Positions 1 through 10,663 of a stretch of 64,000 nt of DNA are shown here, piece after piece; the first letter of the stretch is position 1; every line of letters starts with the position of its first letter. This DNA is from Phytoactinopolyspora limicola (lineage in GTDB: Bacteria > Actinomycetota > Actinomycetes > Jiangellales > Jiangellaceae). A program made the translations under genes and the position numbers. The notes under the pieces were generated by a model. That model ran no database searches. It had not been told where the DNA came from and saw only the letters and a program-made list of their open reading frames with translations. Location of the stretch: the NCBI RefSeq assembly GCF_011320225.1, contig NZ_JAAOEN010000003.1, positions 434,001 to 498,000 on the forward strand, in the 5' to 3' direction.

Positions 1-1355
1 GGGTCGACGTCCTGCTTCAGCCTGGCCAGCCGGTCTCGGGTCCCCGCGGCGAAGGCGTGCCGGGCGAGGGCATGGCGTTCCTGCCCCTCGGTGAAGTTGA
101 GATAACCCGGCAACGTGGCAAGGTTCTCCGCCAGGCGCTCCCAGGTGTGGCCGAACCGCTGCTCGAGTTCCACGTCCGCTTCCGGCGACATGATCAATCC
201 GACCAGTTCGAGAACGTACGCACCAGTGCGGGCGTCGAAGCTCACATGAGGATTCGGTGTGGAGATGGCACCACCCGCATGGCGTAGCTCGGCGAAGAGG
301 ACGGGAGACGGCGGTTGGTCACCCACCACGGCGTCGATCATCGCTTCGCCCACGTTTGTGCCTGCCTCGTGTAGCCACCGCCCGCTGGTCGCCGCCGGCA
401 GCGGATCGACGGGGTCTTGAGAGATCTCGGCACAGCGGGCGAACGGCAGCACCCCGAACGTGTCCAGGAGCGGAGACCGCCACCGCCGCCACTCGTCGAC
501 CATGGCCTTGCCCTCCGCGAGGTCTCCCGAATGGCAGCCGCGGAATATGGCGAACGTCTGTCCACGCAGCGGTTCCGGCACGATATCCAGCGGCGGGAAC
601 GCTGTGATGTTGAACGCGCTGGTCAACTCGGTGGGAGCGTCGGCGGTCCGGGTGCGGAACCGGTCGAAGACGTCCAAGGCCGCGTCGACGGGATAGAAGA
701 GGTTACCCGCATACACCTCGTCGACCGGGGCGAGGGCAACCGTCATCTCCACGATCACCCCCAGCGTGCCGCCGCCGGCGCCGCATAGTCCCCAGAACAA
801 CTCCGGCGACGATTCCGCGGTCGCGACGACCACCCGGCCGTCGGCGAGCACAACGCGCAAGGAGCGCACACTATCCACCGCCAACCCATAGTGGCGTGCC
901 AACCAGCCAGTGCCGCCACCAACGGTGTAACCGACAGCGCCCACGTGTGGTGCCGAACCCAGCAAGGGGGCGAGCCCGTGTTCCTGGGCAGCGGCGAGCA
1001 CGGGCCGCCACGTGACGCCGCCACCCATCGTCGCGGTGCGCGCGGCCGGATCGATGCGGACGCCGTCGAACGCTGACATCACCATCAGAATGGACTGCTC
1101 GTCGGCGGGGACCACCACGCCGTGTCCCGTCGTTTGGACAGCGACACTCAACCCCAGCTGGCGAGCGTAAGCGAGGGTCACGACGACGTCGTCTTCGTCG
1201 GCCGGAACGACGACGGCCGCCGGCCGGTGGGTCCAGGCCAGGTTCCAGGCGGCCGCAGCCGTCTCGTATCGCGTATCCCCCGGAGTGATCACCGATCCGC
1301 GGACCGCGGTGGTCAGTGCGTCGATGCGTGATGGGCGGGAAAAGGAAATCGTCAT
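1..1355 (-). CDS. FAD-linked (BBE/PCMH-type) oxidoreductase, 3' end outside window
   Basis: The visible 451 codons run off the left edge, so the C-terminus is missing. The N-terminal half is a PCMH/vanillyl-alcohol-oxidase-type FAD domain: PAAVVVPADEDDVV near residue 45 and TTGHGV near 75-80, whose His78 sits where the family attaches FAD covalently. The berberine-bridge family's second link, a Cys in GxCPTVG, is replaced by GSAPHVG (about 132-138), so at most mono-covalent FAD is expected. A BBE-like C-terminal segment (LNFTEGQE) lies near the window start. Such enzymes oxidise sugars, alcohols or natural-product intermediates; the substrate cannot be told. The start is an ATG preceded by a GGGGGTCC stretch. 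It is divergent from a LuxR-type regulator, which may control it. Confidence 0.85.
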   Translation of the reverse strand, partial: MTISFSRPSRIDALTTAVRGSVITPGDTRYETAAAAWNLAWTHRPAAVVVPADEDDVVVTLAYARQLGLSVAVQTTGHGVVVPADEQSILMVMSAFDGVRIDPAARTATMGGGVTWRPVLAAAQEHGLAPLLGSAPHVGAVGYTVGGGTGWLARHYGLAVDSVRSLRVVLADGRVVVATAESSPELFWGLCGAGGGTLGVIVEMTVALAPVDEVYAGNLFYPVDAALDVFDRFRTRTADAPTELTSAFNITAFPPLDIVPEPLRGQTFAIFRGCHSGDLAEGKAMVDEWRRWRSPLLDTFGVLPFARCAEISQDPVDPLPAATSGRWLHEAGTNVGEAMIDAVVGDQPPSPVLFAELRHAGGAISTPNPHVSFDARTGAYVLELVGLIMSPEADVELEQRFGHTWERLAENLATLPGYLNFTEGQERHALARHAFAAGTRDRLARLKQDVD

Positions 1356-1513
1356 GTCGGACCCCCTGCTAATCGTTGTCGGCACCTCATGGCTGTGGTC
1401 AGTCTTCGCCGTGCGGGGTGCGGGGGCCATCCCGCCGGCAGTGGGTTCTTCGCCGAGGCGTCCCCCTCAAGCTAGGGATATCGCGAGCCGTTCCATGCGA
1501 GTAGCCTCGGACA

Positions 1514-2626
1514 ATGGGGAATGCGGACTCGGTCCAGCTCCGCCACGGCGCACATCGCGTTCACGAAATATGCGCCGACGCCGTCGAACCGACAGAATTC
1601 GTCGACGCGTTACGGGAGGTCTTCGCCCGCTCTCTCGGCGTATGTGCGTCCTTCATCAGTGCCACCGACCCGGACACCACGATCGTCGCTACGGCCGCCG
1701 TCGTCGACAACCTCCCGCTGGCGATGTGTGCACCGTGGTTCCACAACGAGTTTCTCGCCGAGGACTTCAACAAGTTCGCCGACCTGCATCGCAACGCTAG
1801 CGCCGTGGCCACCCTGCACCGGGCGACACAGAACCACCCGGTTCTGAGCCCGCGCTACGTCGAGCTGTATCAACCCGTCGGGTTCGGCCCGGAACTGCGC
1901 ACCACGTTTTCCATGGATGGCGCCTGCTGGGGAATCGCGAATCTGCTGCGTGAAAGCGGAACTCAGGACTTCGACGACGTCGAGCTGGCCTGGGTCGAAC
2001 AGCTTCGCCGGCCGATCGCCGACGCTCTGCGGCGCAGAATCCTCGGCTCCGGGGTCCACGACAACGACGACGTCATCCCCGGAATCGTGACGTTCGATCC
2101 CGATGGGCACATCCTCTCGATGTCGGAGAACGCGGCCGCCCTTCTGGACGAACTCGACATGCTGCCCATCGACGCCGGGCCCGACGTCCAAGTGCCGGGT
2201 CAGGCGTACATGGTGGTCACCTTGGCCCGCGCTCGCGCCACCGGCCACGGCAGCGCACTGCGTCCGGTCACCCGGGTTCGGGGTTCATCCGGGCGATGGC
2301 TCACCCTCCGGGGCGACTGCACGACGGCACGCTCGGGTGAGATCGTCAACGTCGTCCTGGTCATCGAACCTTCGCGACCGTCCGAGATCACGCCGCTGCT
2401 CGTCGCCGCCTACAACCTCACCGCCCGAGAACAGGAGGTACTCGGTGAGCTCACGGCGGGCCGTCGTACCGCTGAGATCGCCGCCCGGCTGTTCATCTCC
2501 GAACACACCGTGCGTGATCACATAAAGTCGATCTTCGCGAAGACGGCCACCACGTCGCGGGGTGAGCTGATGAGCACCATGTTCCACCAGCACGCCTACC
2601 CCGTCACCAACGTCGTGCACCACTGA
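1514..2626 (+). CDS. LuxR-family transcriptional regulator
   Basis: A 370-aa protein with a C-terminal LuxR/GerE helix-turn-helix at about residues 300-360: LTAREQEVLGELTAG, then AARLFISEHTVRDHIKSIF, the usual four-helix recognition signature. The first 200 residues look like a GAF/PAS-type sensory domain, and residues about 200-290 like a second small sensor region; there is no receiver domain or ATPase module. No clear Shine-Dalgarno precedes the ATG, so it may be leaderless or start elsewhere. It is divergent from the FAD oxidoreductase across about 158 bp, which makes that gene the obvious target. Its 3' end overlaps the convergent membrane-protein gene by 23 bp. Confidence 0.85.
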   Translation: MGNADSVQLRHGAHRVHEICADAVEPTEFVDALREVFARSLGVCASFISATDPDTTIVATAAVVDNLPLAMCAPWFHNEFLAEDFNKFADLHRNASAVATLHRATQNHPVLSPRYVELYQPVGFGPELRTTFSMDGACWGIANLLRESGTQDFDDVELAWVEQLRRPIADALRRRILGSGVHDNDDVIPGIVTFDPDGHILSMSENAAALLDELDMLPIDAGPDVQVPGQAYMVVTLARARATGHGSALRPVTRVRGSSGRWLTLRGDCTTARSGEIVNVVLVIEPSRPSEITPLLVAAYNLTAREQEVLGELTAGRRTAEIAARLFISEHTVRDHIKSIFAKTATTSRGELMSTMFHQHAYPVTNVVHH

Positions 2627-3224
2627 ATGGCACCGCGACGTAGGCGGCAACCACCACGAGGAACAGCCCTCCCGCCATCACCCACATTGCCGGAGTCACC
2701 TCATCCGCGATCAGCACCGCCCACCAATAGGCGCCTCCGTCGCTTTCGGGGTCAGACTGGTCCGGCATCCCGAACATGGCACTGACCAGCAGCACCACCA
2801 TGGGCGGTAGCCACGTCAGCAAGGGCCGCCCCACAACAACCATGACGGTCGCCAACCCGGCACACACCAGAACATTGCGAGCGATGGGCGCCGCGTCTAC
2901 GTCCGCGCCGGCCAGGACGCCGACGCTGGCAGCCGCCACCGCGGCGGTGGTCCAGGTGAGGATCCACAACAGGCGGGCCAACGCTGCCCTGGGCGGATCC
3001 GGTAGCGGCGCGCTCGTGGGATAGGCGCAGGCGACGGCGGCGGCAACCCCGGCGATGGCGGGAATCAGCAGCAGTGCCGCCACCGGGTCCGCGAACACCA
3101 CCATACCGAGCCGTCGTACTGATACCTCGGCGCAGATGAGTGACGCCAGGGCAGTGATGATCATGACGAGGCCAGCGAGCCGACTGTGATGTACGCCGAC
3201 CCACGCTCGCCCGGCTGTCGTCAC
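2604..3224 (-). CDS. Small integral membrane protein, last gene of an ABC operon
   Basis: 206 aa dominated by hydrophobic segments, consistent with about six membrane helices; no recognised motif. The start overlaps the stop of the upstream permease by 4 bp, and the whole set (peptide ORF, ATPase, 419-aa permease, this gene) is collinear, so it is probably an accessory membrane subunit of that transporter. It ends within the tail of the convergent LuxR gene. The family is not identified. Confidence 0.7.
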   Translation of the reverse strand: MTTAGRAWVGVHHSRLAGLVMIITALASLICAEVSVRRLGMVVFADPVAALLLIPAIAGVAAAVACAYPTSAPLPDPPRAALARLLWILTWTTAAVAAASVGVLAGADVDAAPIARNVLVCAGLATVMVVVGRPLLTWLPPMVVLLVSAMFGMPDQSDPESDGGAYWWAVLIADEVTPAMWVMAGGLFLVVVAAYVAVPFSGARRW

Positions 3225-4480
3225 CGCTCAAGCTCACATCGGGCGAACCGATCGATAACCTCGGTGGTCTCACCCGGCGAGAGCAACCGGTCGTGGTCCG
3301 GATCGAACCACCGGTCCCCGGTTGGGAGCGACGCCAGGTCCAGCCAGGTGAAAATCAATGCCGTTAAGTCGCCCCAGAACTCGTCCGGGGGTCCGATGTC
3401 AGCCCTCAGGGCATCACAATGAACCGGGTCGACCAGCCCATAGGCGACCTCAAACCATTGCATCTCTTGGCCTTCCAGTACCTCGGTGGGGATCTGGAAC
3501 CCGCGGGTGTCGAAGTTGTCGGGCCAGTAGGTGCGGCTCCTTTCGTGCACGGCGTCCGGCACCAGCGCCGGGTAACCAGCGTCAAGTGCCGCTTCCGACA
3601 AAACCTCGATCTTCGCGACCAGATCCGCGCGAACCCGATCATGCTCGACGTACGTACAGATCCGTGGCATAGACCCGGAACAGTGATCGGGCGGAGACGC
3701 ATCAACAACATAACGGTCACCCGGCAACACCGCCGACGCAGCCGGCACCACCGCGACCACACCAAGCGCCAGCAGCGCCCCGCCAACCGTGGGCAGCACC
3801 CGGCCAGATCTCTCCCGAACCCCGAGCAGAAGCAACACGCCTGCGGTCACGGCGAGCACCAGAGCCTGCCCGCCCAGATAATCGAGGTTGTATCCGTAGC
3901 CGATCCGCGGCGCCGATCCAGCACCCGTCTCAAGAAGCGCGAACCGCCCCGAGAAACCACTGCCTTCATCACCAATCACCAGGAAGAGCACCACACAGAC
4001 CACCCCGGCCGCCAATCCGGCGACGATCGGCCCCAGAAAACGGCCAATCGCCGACCCCAGGGCAACACACCAAACGATCACCAGGAGGCCCACTGCCAAG
4101 GCCAGCATCATCGGACCCCACCCCGCACTAGGCCTGGTGACACCACCCAGCACCAGAACGACGCCCACAGCGACAAGATGAACACCCATCAACGGAACCG
4201 CACACCACATCGCCGCCCACACCAGCGGCCGTTGATGCCCCGCCGCAGTGACCACCAGATGTACCCGCCCCGGACGGGTGAACCGAGCCGCATCCACCGC
4301 GCTCAACGCCGCGGCCAGCGGGCCGACCAGCCACAACACCCCGGACAACCAGTCAACGGTCCACATCCCCTCACCGCGATACGGCATCCCCGTCAGGGAA
4401 AAGTCAAGGATGAACCCGACCAGGTGAACCGGCGCCGCCCACACACCAAACAGCGTGACCGCCGCGAATCGCACACTCAC
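3221..4480 (-). CDS. ABC transporter membrane protein (ABC-2-like permease)
   Basis: 419 aa with a hydrophobic N-terminal two-thirds (multiple helices up to about residue 250) and a mostly soluble C-terminal 150 residues containing Cys pairs (DHCSGS, RICTYVEH) that could be extracytoplasmic. It begins with a GTG that overlaps the ATPase stop (GTGA), indicating translational coupling, so it is most likely the channel partner of that ATPase. The large soluble tail is unusual for a simple ABC-2 permease and might bind the exported substrate or signal. No substrate can be named. Confidence 0.72.
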   Translation of the reverse strand: MSVRFAAVTLFGVWAAPVHLVGFILDFSLTGMPYRGEGMWTVDWLSGVLWLVGPLAAALSAVDAARFTRPGRVHLVVTAAGHQRPLVWAAMWCAVPLMGVHLVAVGVVLVLGGVTRPSAGWGPMMLALAVGLLVIVWCVALGSAIGRFLGPIVAGLAAGVVCVVLFLVIGDEGSGFSGRFALLETGAGSAPRIGYGYNLDYLGGQALVLAVTAGVLLLLGVRERSGRVLPTVGGALLALGVVAVVPAASAVLPGDRYVVDASPPDHCSGSMPRICTYVEHDRVRADLVAKIEVLSEAALDAGYPALVPDAVHERSRTYWPDNFDTRGFQIPTEVLEGQEMQWFEVAYGLVDPVHCDALRADIGPPDEFWGDLTALIFTWLDLASLPTGDRWFDPDHDRLLSPGETTEVIDRFARCELER

Positions 4481-5205
4481 TCCGATTCTCCGATCAGTCC
4501 GGACACGGCGCGCTCGAGCGGCGTCTCCCCCGGTGCTGACGCCACGTCACAGCGCTCCAGCTCCACCACCGAGCCGTCGAACACCAACGAACCGTTGCGG
4601 ATGACGATCACCCGCCCACCTAACCCACGGACGTCCTCAACAAGGTGCGTCGACACAAGCACCACCCGGTTCTGGGCGTTCCCAACGATCGTTTCTCGCA
4701 GCACCGCACGTTGCCGAGGATCAAGTCCCCCGCTGGGTTCGTCCAGCAAAACCACCGGCGGGTTGTGAACGAGCGCGTGCGCAATCCCCAGCCGCTGCCG
4801 CATTCCTTTCGACAATTCGCGGATCTTGCTCTGCCGACGGTCCAACAGCCGAGTCTGCTCCAGCACACTCGTCACAGCCGCATCGCGATCCTTCCTCGGC
4901 ACGCGGTGTAACCACGCGACATAGTGCAGGAACTCCTCGCACGTCGCGGCTCTGGGCAGGTCCAGCTCCTCCGGCAAATATCCAAGCAACTGGCTTCCTG
5001 GCCCCTCGAGGCGTAACGAACCTGAACTTGGCCGGTCAATCCCGGCCACCACCCGGAACAGGGTCGATTTTCCCGCGCCGTTCGCTCCCACCAGACACGT
5101 CACACCAGGCTCAAGGTGCAACGACAACGGGCCCAACTGAAACCGACGCCCGTGTTTCTTCACGAGGTCTTTAGCCACGATGGCACCCGGCGACAACACC
5201 GTCAC
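4477..5205 (-). CDS. ABC transporter ATP-binding protein
   Basis: A single nucleotide-binding domain of 242 aa from the chosen GTG. Visible motifs are Walker A GANGAGKST, signature LSKGMRQRLG, Walker B VVLLDEPSGGLD and switch His in VLVSTHLVED, typical of ABC-2-type exporters. The frame remains open to an earlier TTG at 5277, but that lies inside a 15-bp hairpin stem. The GTG at 5205 has GGGAGG about 6 bp upstream and starts just before the conserved VAKDLVKKHG strand, so I prefer it. It is followed by overlapping permease genes and preceded by a 37-codon peptide gene, so its cargo may be that peptide. Confidence 0.88.
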   Translation of the reverse strand: MTVLSPGAIVAKDLVKKHGRRFQLGPLSLHLEPGVTCLVGANGAGKSTLFRVVAGIDRPSSGSLRLEGPGSQLLGYLPEELDLPRAATCEEFLHYVAWLHRVPRKDRDAAVTSVLEQTRLLDRRQSKIRELSKGMRQRLGIAHALVHNPPVVLLDEPSGGLDPRQRAVLRETIVGNAQNRVVLVSTHLVEDVRGLGGRVIVIRNGSLVFDGSVVELERCDVASAPGETPLERAVSGLIGESE

Positions 5206-5238
5206 CCATTCCTCCCAAACATTCAGGCAACCCATAGG

Positions 5239-5277
5239 TTGCGCCAGGAGACACCGAACGGCTGTCTCCTGGCGCAA
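5239..5277 (-). terminator. Perfect 15-bp hairpin between peptide gene and ABC operon
   Basis: The arms TTGCGCCAGGAGACA and TGTCTCCTGGCGCAA pair perfectly around a 9-nt loop. The stem begins 12 bp after the stop codon of the small peptide gene and about 33 bp before the ATPase start. There is no long T-run on the minus strand, so it may act as a partial terminator or mRNA-stabilising hairpin, giving more peptide transcript than transporter transcript. This arrangement is common for precursor-peptide operons. Confidence 0.7.
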
Positions 5278-5289
5278 GAAAAGTCGAAC

Positions 5290-5403
5290 TCAGTAGCTGG
5301 TTGGTCCCCGGTAGATCCAGGACGAGTGTTTGTCGGGTTTGAACGTACGCCGGTCGAGAGTGACCCGTATCTGGCCCCGCGCACGCACCCCGGCCGACGG
5401 CAT
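5290..5403 (-). CDS. 37-aa cationic peptide, putative secreted or signalling peptide
   Basis: A short ORF read directly from sequence: ATG with an excellent Shine-Dalgarno (AAGGAGGGGGCG abutting the start) and a TGA stop, followed by a perfect hairpin. The peptide begins MPSAGVRARGQIRV and ends SSWIYRGPTSY. It is basic, lacks a hydrophobic signal sequence, has no Cys, and has an aromatic C-terminal third. It is the first gene ahead of an ABC ATPase and two membrane proteins on the same strand, as for precursor peptides or peptide cues of dedicated exporters. No modification enzyme is visible nearby, so calling it a RiPP precursor would be a guess. I do not recognise the family. Confidence 0.6.
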   Translation of the reverse strand: MPSAGVRARGQIRVTLDRRTFKPDKHSSWIYRGPTSY

Positions 5404-5548
5404 CGCCCCCTCCTTGGTGCCTGCCAGTCTCGCTGAACCGAGGCTGAAAGTGACCGAATGTTATCGGAAACAACACATCCAGAAATAGACCCCAAGCCGA
5501 ACCGTGCGGATTCCGGATATCTCCCGTCGGCAGTGGTAATGTCCGGAC

Positions 5549-6034
5549 GTGCAGGAGAGGATCACCTTCTTTGATCAGGTCTACGGCATCGGGTTGCGCA
5601 TCGCGGCTGGTAGTGGCCGCAGTTGGATGGACCAGCCCGGCGGTGACCCACAACATGCACATTGCCAGATTGATCTGCCCGGTGACACGCTTCTTCCGTC
5701 GACGGACCTTAAGCAACGCTTGACGTCAGGTGTCTTCTTTCTCGCCTGGGATGACGTGCTGCGCTTCGCTGACGAGCTAACCGACCTCGCCGTCGCGCCC
5801 AGCGCGGAGACGGCCAGCCTGGGTGACCGTAGTACTCGGCTGAGCGTCCGGATCCGACCCGACGGACGGTTGCGCGCAGAGGCCGTCATCGCTCAGGGCC
5901 ATCACGTCGCCATAACAGTGCGTTGCCAGACGTTGTGGGATTGGCACTTCGGTGTCCGGGAGGACTTGCCGGCCCTCGCGGCCCGGTTGCGCTCGGCGGT
6001 TTCCAAGACCCGCCCGCCGAACCGCCAAATGTAG
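5549..6034 (+). CDS. Hypothetical protein
   Basis: 161 aa from a GTG start, no signal peptide or membrane segment. The sequence alternates short beta-like stretches (GVFFLAWDDVLRFADELTDL, TRLSVRIRPDGRLRAEAVI, HHVAITVRC), resembling small actinobacterial one-domain DUF proteins of the DUF6228/DUF5959 kind, but I cannot assign it firmly. It is divergent from the peptide/ABC operon and converges with the SulP gene, ending 1 bp from it. Composition is like its neighbours, and the length and lack of strong competing frames support a real gene. Confidence 0.6.
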   Translation: MQERITFFDQVYGIGLRIAAGSGRSWMDQPGGDPQHAHCQIDLPGDTLLPSTDLKQRLTSGVFFLAWDDVLRFADELTDLAVAPSAETASLGDRSTRLSVRIRPDGRLRAEAVIAQGHHVAITVRCQTLWDWHFGVREDLPALAARLRSAVSKTRPPNRQM

Positions 6035-7831: not shown

Positions 7832-9319
7832 TTACCCCGGGGTGCTCAGCGCCCTGTACCGTCGGCGCGCCCAATAACCGATGACGAGCAAGGCCGCGAC
7901 GAAGGCGACGAATGAGGCGCCGAGGCCGGTGGTGACGAAGAGGTACACACATGCACCCACAGTGGCCGCGGACAGAATGAGGCCGTCGAACTGCCAAGCG
8001 AACATGGCCAGTGCCGACGCATCTCCGAATGGCGTAGGCACCGGCATCAACAGCGACACCGGCATCGGCCCTTTGCCAGCGGCGTACGCGGTCGAGATCA
8101 GGATGATGACAACCGACTCGAGGGCGAGCGCCGCGCCCGGCAGCGACAACCGATCACTCATTCCAGTGCCCGCCGCCACCATGGCCGAGAGCACCACACA
8201 GACGGACAGGGGCGCCATCGAATGCAGGGCTAGCCGGTGCCCAACGGTATAGCGGACGAGCCGGGGCCGCGGAGCGCTGTCGGCGGCAAGCCGGAAACCG
8301 TCACCGAAAACCGTCATACCCGAATAACCCAGGACAACGGCCAGTACGACGAGTGCCGGCTGAATACTCGAAGGCACCGAATCAACCTGGGCTAATACGA
8401 GTACGCACCCGCCGACGCTCGTCACACCCCGGAGAAGTCTGGCCGGGTTCCGCGACATTGCGAGGACGTCACGCCACAGCCATCGTGCGCCTTTCGGTAG
8501 GTGACGTGGGGTGCGCCAGTTCCGGCCCACGGCGGGTGGCGCCCGGAAGACCGCCGTAGCACCCGCGAGATCACCGGTGAGCGCCCACGATCCGGCCGTC
8601 GACAACGTCTGCGCCTGTTCGCGCAGATCGCGGTAGCGAATGGTGTCAAGCAACCTCGGAACGGCCACGACGCCGGCCGCCGCCACGGCCGCGAGCAGGA
8701 CGAAAGCCAGCGCGCCCGGCCCGTCGTCGCCCGGCCAGCCCGCCGCAACCCAATGCCACGCAATGACCGGCCGGACGGGTTCGACCAGCAGGTAGACGAG
8801 GTAGACCGCGCCGCCCACCACGACGATAGCCGCGTGCTTGCGCCTGCTGACAACCTGACCCGCCAGCCAGGTCACCGAGGTGATGACGCCGACGAGGATG
8901 CTCACCGACGTGAACGCGACGACGGACCGGACCGCAACGGCGTCTTCGAGCCACAGAATCACCAGCGGAAGTGCACCCAACACACCCACGAACACCGTCA
9001 GCAGCCCCGCCGCGACGAGGAACGGCCGGCCCAGGGTGCCGCGACGGGAGCGTGGGCCTTGCACCACCACGTCGACCGCGAACGAGTCCAGCATCGCTGG
9101 CCCTCTGACCTGGCCGAACCCGAACGCCAGCAGGAGAAGTGCCCCACTCACCGCGCCGACGATGACGGTCATCGAGTCCGACTGCATCACTGCCAAGGCG
9201 CCTGGATCGCGCAAGGCGGTGACGGCGGCCAAGCCCAGAGGTCCGATGACCACAACGAGCACGAGTACGGACATGTACGCCGCGTTGGCGATCTTCGACC
9301 ACGTCAACCGCGTCGTCAT
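7832..9319 (-). CDS. ABC transporter permease, large polytopic membrane protein
   Basis: 495 aa with roughly ten hydrophobic segments spread over the whole length and one larger soluble stretch near residues 225-290 (RYRDLREQAQTL through the KGARWLWRD region). No catalytic motif. Its start overlaps the stop of the upstream ATPase gene by 4 bp, and the pair matches actinobacterial two-gene ABC exporters of unknown substrate in which the permease resembles a fused ABC-2 dimer. About 200 bp of gene-free sequence lies between it and SulP downstream. Confidence 0.72.
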   Translation of the reverse strand: MTTRLTWSKIANAAYMSVLVLVVVIGPLGLAAVTALRDPGALAVMQSDSMTVIVGAVSGALLLLAFGFGQVRGPAMLDSFAVDVVVQGPRSRRGTLGRPFLVAAGLLTVFVGVLGALPLVILWLEDAVAVRSVVAFTSVSILVGVITSVTWLAGQVVSRRKHAAIVVVGGAVYLVYLLVEPVRPVIAWHWVAAGWPGDDGPGALAFVLLAAVAAAGVVAVPRLLDTIRYRDLREQAQTLSTAGSWALTGDLAGATAVFRAPPAVGRNWRTPRHLPKGARWLWRDVLAMSRNPARLLRGVTSVGGCVLVLAQVDSVPSSIQPALVVLAVVLGYSGMTVFGDGFRLAADSAPRPRLVRYTVGHRLALHSMAPLSVCVVLSAMVAAGTGMSDRLSLPGAALALESVVIILISTAYAAGKGPMPVSLLMPVPTPFGDASALAMFAWQFDGLILSAATVGACVYLFVTTGLGASFVAFVAALLVIGYWARRRYRALSTPG

Positions 9320-9939
9320 CCCTCGAGATGGATCTGGTAGCCGGCGAAATGAGCGCGCAAGCGTGCGTTATGAGTTGCCATGATCACGGTCCGACCGTCC
9401 GCCAGGAGCCGGTCGATGACCTCGGCCACCAGGTCCACGCGCTCATCATCAAGCCGCTGTTCCGGCTCATCCAGGATCAGAACATCGAACGGGCGAGACA
9501 ACACCAGCGCGAGCGCAAACAACTGCGCCTGCCCCGTCGACAACTCGTGCGGATACCTCGTCGCCAAGTGATCGATCCCCAACCCGGCAAGAGCGTCATC
9601 AGCGATGGGCTCGTCCGGAGCGAAGAACCCCGCCCAGGTGTCCGATACGAACTCGACGTGCTCGGCAACCGTCAAGTTCCGCGCGAAGGCCGGCGCACCG
9701 ATCGACGCGGCCAGGCAGCGACGGAACTCCCGATTCCGGTCATCAGGTGTCATGCCGCGCACGAGACAGGTGCCTGACGACGGTGTTACCAGGCCCGCCA
9801 GCACGGAGAGCAGAGTTGTCTTCCCCGCCCCGTTCTGACCGGTCAGGCTCAGGCACTGTCCTCGGACAACACTGAATGAGGTCGGCCTCAGCCGTACGAC
9901 GTCGCCCTCCCCTACGGAGACGGACCGGACGTCGATCAT
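9316..9939 (-). CDS. ABC transporter ATP-binding protein
   Basis: 207 aa from the ATG giving MIDVRSVSV, which places the first strand of the nucleotide-binding fold correctly. Walker A is TGQNGAGKTTLL, the signature ELSTGQAQLFALA, Walker B VLILDEPEQRLDDE, and the switch His is in VIMATHNARL. The frame is open upstream to about 10251, but that extension is antisense to the DUF402 coding region and has no domain, so I exclude it. The signature STGQ deviates from canonical SGGQ. Translationally coupled to the 495-aa permease; substrate unknown. Confidence 0.85.
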   Translation of the reverse strand: MIDVRSVSVGEGDVVRLRPTSFSVVRGQCLSLTGQNGAGKTTLLSVLAGLVTPSSGTCLVRGMTPDDRNREFRRCLAASIGAPAFARNLTVAEHVEFVSDTWAGFFAPDEPIADDALAGLGIDHLATRYPHELSTGQAQLFALALVLSRPFDVLILDEPEQRLDDERVDLVAEVIDRLLADGRTVIMATHNARLRAHFAGYQIHLEG

Positions 9940-10126
9940 CGGATCGGGGTCCCCACCCCAGCAACACCATCCATCGACCGCACGATACCTGCCGGCTCCT
10001 AGACTGTGCCGCAATGGATTCGCAACATGATCACGGTGTAGGTGTCGTCGCTGAGTCGGGTGTTCGCCGCCCTTCCGGCGCCCCGCCGACGGCCTGGTCG
10101 CGTGGCTGGCGCCCGGCACGCCTATC

Positions 10127-10663
10127 ATGCGCGCCGCACTGCCGGACGGACGAGAACTCCGCCACGCTCCGCTCCATGAACGGCACCAACACCCTCGAGC
10201 GTCCGAACGCGACGTCTGGCGTGGCAACGGAACGCTGAAGATCGCGCCCACTGGGCGGCCGTGGTCGGTCTGGCTCTTCTGGGACGACCACTGGCATCAC
10301 CTCTGCTGGTACGTGAATCTCGAAGATGTCCACGTCCGGGACGACGCCGGAATCGTGACGCGTGATCACGAGCTCGACGTCGTCATCCGCGCCGACGGAT
10401 CGACCAAGATCAAAGACGAAGACGAGCTGGACGCCGCCGTCGCGGCAGGGCGCTTCACCGCAGCCGACGCCGCATCCTTCCATCACCACGCGCGGGACAT
10501 CCTCGGAATAGCGCGGGCTCGCGGAGCACCCTTCGACGACGATTGGCCACTATGGCGACCAGATCCGGGCTGGCCACTCCCCCAATTGCCGGTGTCAGCC
10601 TGGCAGAATCGCCAGAGTGCAAATCAAGATGCTCGGACCGTTCGAGGTGCGCACCGACGGTAG
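10127..10663 (+). CDS. DUF402 (FomD-like barrel) protein, N-terminus apparently disrupted
   Basis: The core is DUF402: WSVWLFWDDHWHHLCWYVNL, then TRDHELDVVI and KDEDELDAAV, with the usual C-terminal WRPDPGWPLPQLP. Family members hydrolyse or transfer on phosphorylated nucleotides. The first ATG in frame is at 10127, yet the preceding in-frame codons spell LVAWLAPGTPIM, a conserved family segment. No ATG, GTG or TTG lies between that segment and the in-frame TGA at 10052-10054. More family-like sequence (SRVFAALPA) is in another frame just upstream. I infer a frameshift in the 5' 100 bp, either real decay or a sequencing error. The 3' end overlaps the next gene by 47 bp. Confidence 0.65.
   Translation: MRAALPDGRELRHAPLHERHQHPRASERDVWRGNGTLKIAPTGRPWSVWLFWDDHWHHLCWYVNLEDVHVRDDAGIVTRDHELDVVIRADGSTKIKDEDELDAAVAAGRFTAADAASFHHHARDILGIARARGAPFDDDWPLWRPDPGWPLPQLPVSAWQNRQSANQDARTVRGAHRR

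Follow-up and report, generated by a model that had tools for sequence, protein, structure and literature searches.

A small open reading frame with a strong ribosome-binding site precedes a DUF7224-like ABC transporter operon in Phytoactinopolyspora limicola

The small open reading frame, its hairpin and the ABC operon

The window, by which we mean the whole 64,000-nucleotide stretch of Phytoactinopolyspora limicola DNA that was analysed, carries on its minus strand an open reading frame (ORF) of 37 amino acids, followed by an ABC ATPase gene and then by two membrane protein genes. The small ORF starts with an ATG and occupies positions 5290 to 5403 (minus strand); a Shine-Dalgarno (SD) sequence, AAGGAGG (5409 to 5415, minus strand), lies 5 nt ahead of the ATG at 5403. 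The initial annotation had placed a small gene with a strong ribosome site at the head of an ABC operon, and the sequence does contain this ORF, its ribosome site and the three genes downstream of it; the span it gave, 5239 to 5403, contains the feature but reaches from the hairpin described below to the ATG, while the ORF itself covers only 5290 to 5403. An AAGGAGG paired with an ATG that opens a frame of at least 30 codons is seen three times in the window, the two other cases heading long ORFs of 267 and 519 amino acids; 0.075 such combinations per 64 kb are expected by chance, as judged from shuffled sequence.

The encoded peptide, MPSAGVRARGQIRVTLDRRTFKPDKHSSWIYRGPTSY, has a mass of 4.29 kDa, a pI of 11.4 and a charge of about +5.6, and it contains no cysteine. 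It has no signal peptide, and none is found upstream of the ORF in any frame (as judged by eye, not by SignalP); cysteine segments have left no trace nearby. The earlier description of a basic, cysteine-free peptide is therefore accurate, while its aromatic-rich end comes down to W29, Y31 and Y37. Residues alternate in a strand-like pattern, and the AlphaFold model of the peptide is of low confidence and uninformative. The codon evidence is modest, if weakly positive: the log-likelihood ratio (LLR) is +2.6 bits, at the 7th percentile of gene segments and the 87th of small ORFs, and GC1 (0.55) is lower than GC2 (0.61), a relation that the neighbouring genes do not show. Given these statistics, translation of the ORF is likely, but unproven.

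Behind the ORF lies a perfect hairpin (5239 to 5277, minus strand), whose arms at 5239-5253 and 5263-5277 pair over 15 bp with 100% complementarity around a 9-nt loop. It begins 12 nt past the stop codon, which bears out the earlier report of a perfect 15-bp hairpin within 12 bp of the ORF. None of 300 shuffles of the gap between ORF and ATPase reached a perfect hairpin of 15 bp. The hairpin is unique in the 6.59-Mb genome, even when three mismatches are allowed, and a repeated element can thus be rejected. It had also been called a leaky terminator; the hairpin is there, but it is not followed by a U-run and the listing of intrinsic terminators has none at 5239-5277, which sets it apart from canonical intrinsic terminators. 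We infer that it acts as a partial terminator or as an mRNA stabiliser.

The ATPase gene (4477 to 5205, minus strand) has a GTG start at 5205 preceded by a GGAGG of its own (5211-5215); the protein matches Pfam ABC_tran at 2.7e-23, and its best relative is 45% identical. The second gene (3221 to 4480, minus strand) encodes a 419-aa membrane protein with a cysteine-bearing C-terminal part, and the third (2604 to 3224, minus strand) a 206-aa membrane protein, a second permease-like subunit for which the hhalign comparison is weaker (probability 52%, E 1.5e-4). On one side the operon is flanked by a divergent gene (5549-6034) whose family is unknown, and on the other by a convergent gene for a LuxR-type regulator (1514-2626). 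There is no maturation enzyme among the operon neighbours, as had been noted before. A SulP gene near the operon is 87-89% identical in three congeners, and in these neither the operon nor the LuxR-type regulator nor the gene at 5549 adjoins it; the part of the window to the left of SulP (1-6034) is thus a region that varies between species. A second ABC pair, consisting of a membrane protein and an ATPase, lies close by at 7832-10251.

Related transporters and the genes that precede them

Relatives of the ATPase share 36-45% identity with it and stand in the same layout, an ATPase followed by membrane proteins of ~430 and ~210 aa. For the large membrane protein, tblastn with this protein alone returned no relatives, and the family link came only through a profile: identity to the family relatives is 18-25%, the family alignment has invariant C267, C275, C415, W40 and W44 as well as invariant glycine positions, and hhalign of the window protein against the relatives gives a probability of 93.5% (E 2.4e-7). 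The profile search found ~70 genes for the large membrane protein in 61 of 393 genomes of the class. At the gathering score the window proteins do not match Pfam PF23866 (DUF7224), to which the relative L072 has a weak match (E 0.048); since the window protein misses this model, we call it DUF7224-like and do not assign it to the Pfam family itself. Judged by its sequence, the window transporter is an outlying member of a widespread, undescribed actinobacterial ABC family. In the literature we found no paper naming DUF7224, and nothing on a pairing of small protein and transporter.

For 62 related operons with a locatable ATPase, we read the sequence upstream of that ATPase, judging signal segments by eye. 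In 16 of them (L072, L074, L112, L115, L118, L119, L125, L130, L131, L133, L136, L140, L146, L148, L153 and L155), the gene directly before the ATPase encodes an intact small protein whose N-terminus forms a hydrophobic, signal-like segment, as at L072:3520-3888; many of the remaining operons open with multi-spanning anti-sigma-like genes, some of them behind an ECF sigma gene. These secreted partners have a signal peptide and mostly cysteines, and their sequences form at least three classes, all of them without a Pfam or NCBIfam match at curated cut-offs; the AlphaFold model of one partner is of low confidence. With its signal peptide, the usual partner probably leaves the cell by Sec rather than through the ABC transporter. 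A scan of the genome collection with a single partner matched Nocardioides aequoreus itself alone. In many genomes from the family to which G390 belongs (L176, L178-L200), a homologue of one partner class forms the N-terminal domain of secreted proteins with a CAP domain (PF00188); there it is fused to CAP and does not head an ABC operon. Two of the 62 operons hold only partner fragments beside the ABC genes, a C-terminal piece at L064 and, at L135, a 40-codon ORF that fuses an N-terminal start to the partner C-terminus. A frame-broken partner copy with an in-frame TAG was seen at G266:C1:5504140-5504530.

A gap of 40 nt or more is present in 11 secreted-partner operons, of which three (L112, L131 and L148) have perfect stems of at least 10 bp in the gap, with hairpins of 11-13 bp, where 0.03 are expected; long imperfect gap hairpins are found at L133, L146 and L155, and none of eight control junctions has a strong hairpin. 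Because 16 operons open with a small secreted protein and six of these have a strong hairpin, the layout of small product, hairpin and transporter is real and recurrent; the window operon, with its ORF directly upstream of the ATPase and a hairpin in the gap, resembles a part of this partner family. The layout proposed in the initial annotation is in this respect borne out by the relatives, but the reading of it as a bacteriocin or exporter system gains no comparative support. Several partners, those at L112, L131, L146, L148, L153 and L074, end in an aromatic residue, as does the window peptide. The genome of the window also encodes a further member of the family (L065, C38), with a long palindrome of ~19-bp arms and a large loop just before its ATPase, at ~4600-4700; no small partner gene was seen ahead of that ATPase.

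The 37-aa peptide itself has no relative in the 393 genomes of the class, 22 of them from its own family, and no homologue among plasmids and phages; Pfam, NCBIfam and PADLOC gave nothing at cut-off, and the search matches that were inspected all proved to be chance similarities or to lie in the wrong frame of another gene. The transporter relatives keep other partners. The ORF is, then, unconserved where the ABC genes are retained, an outcome that the initial annotation had named as refuting its proposal; we do not regard it as decisive, since the ABC genes are themselves very divergent (at most 45% identity for the ATPase, 18-25% for the large membrane protein). Lacking a signal peptide in every upstream frame, the 37-aa ORF is also unlike the usual partner. 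A faint RV.L......PD match links it to the partner core, and against two small partner profiles ~0.0045 and 0.002 of shuffles, and 0.004-0.026 of real small ORFs, score as high. With a larger profile (~30 more partner domains) the peptide's score dropped, and the fractions rose to ~0.017 for shuffles and 0.058 for small ORFs. On profile A, L064 and L135 reach 16.4 and 13.8 bits against 2.6 bits, both clearly over background. As the match was spotted before it was tested, the p values are optimistic; with p ranging from 0.002 to 0.06 by profile and null, and a score that falls as the profile grows, we do not claim homology to the partner core.

What the small ORF may be

Our preferred explanation, held tentatively and with somewhat less than even confidence, is that the ORF is a translated, lineage-specific small gene that fills the partner slot in an operon of the DUF7224-like ABC type. 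The hairpin past its stop would halt or process most transcripts, which would leave the small product in excess over a transporter whose ATPase would be translated separately, from a ribosome site of its own. The product would take the place of the relatives' small secreted protein as a basic, signal-less, cysteine-free and lineage-specific version, and would probably work at the cell envelope, either together with the transporter or as something that the transporter handles. This explanation draws on the rarity of the combined SD, ATG and ORF, the unique perfect hairpin, the recurrent layout, the membership of the transporter family and the separate start of the ATPase; against it stand the lack of any homologue, the weak codon signal with GC2 above GC1, the missing signal peptide and the unconvincing similarity to partners. 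Rather unlikely, although next in probability, is that the ORF is the eroded remainder of a full-length secreted partner which has lost its signal peptide and cysteines while the ribosome site and hairpin survived. Such decay occurs in the same family (L064, L135), the frame-broken G266 copy contains a TAG, and the faint match to the partner core would fit; this match is unconvincing, however, whereas the fragments at L064 and L135 are clearly above background on profile A, neither the signal peptide nor the cysteine segments can be traced nearby, and the SD is still intact.

That no gene exists here, and that the frame is open by chance in a leader sequence that separates the ATPase from the divergent gene at 5549 and is not translated, is in our view unlikely: the absent conservation, the weak codon signal and a GC1 below GC2 speak for it, but a strong, well-spaced SD and an ATG stand exactly in the partner slot, with the hairpin right behind the stop. 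The strong hairpin directly after the ORF, in a polar arrangement, might also suggest an upstream ORF with a regulatory role, the translation of which would control the hairpin and, through it, the ABC genes. We consider this the least probable of the explanations, as the ORF has no run of a single amino acid, the hairpin is kept in both the minimum-energy and the centroid structures and the folding of its region gives no competing antiterminator, the window has no Rfam match, the ATPase has its own ribosome site, and relatives with hairpins encode full secreted proteins in the same slot.

Comparison with known systems and significance

A close parallel to the window operon is the DUF7224-like operon of Nocardioides aequoreus NRRL B-24464 (L163), which has the same gene order and sizes, the three invariant cysteines and a small gene in first place; that gene encodes a 125-aa protein with a signal peptide, whereas the window has a signal-less, cysteine-free ORF of 37 aa. 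Lactococcin 972-type systems combine a Sec-secreted small protein with an ABC transporter, a layout that the relatives' operons share, although their partners match no Pfam or NCBIfam family at cut-off. In leaderless class II bacteriocin operons, a short, basic, leaderless peptide is encoded beside ABC genes, and the window peptide is likewise short, basic, leaderless and next to ABC genes; it differs in having a strand-like pattern and no antimicrobial, helical or saposin-like evidence. A bacteriocin or RiPP precursor is not supported, with no leader peptide and no known maturation or immunity gene adjacent, and none of our tests favours export of the peptide through the ABC transporter or a role for it in signalling or as a bacteriocin. 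It is quite unlikely, although conceivable, that the peptide is a leaderless replacement for the Sec-secreted partner, one that the transporter in turn moves or senses; if so, the ABC family would serve generally to handle the cell's own small exported protein, or to protect against it, with interchangeable partners.

Following an orphan peptide has thus revealed a widespread pairing in Actinobacteria, apparently undescribed so far, in which the gene for a small secreted protein lies immediately ahead of a DUF7224-like ABC transporter and the two are often separated by a strong hairpin. This pairing makes the question of what substrate the DUF7224-like transporter family handles directly testable in cultured species.
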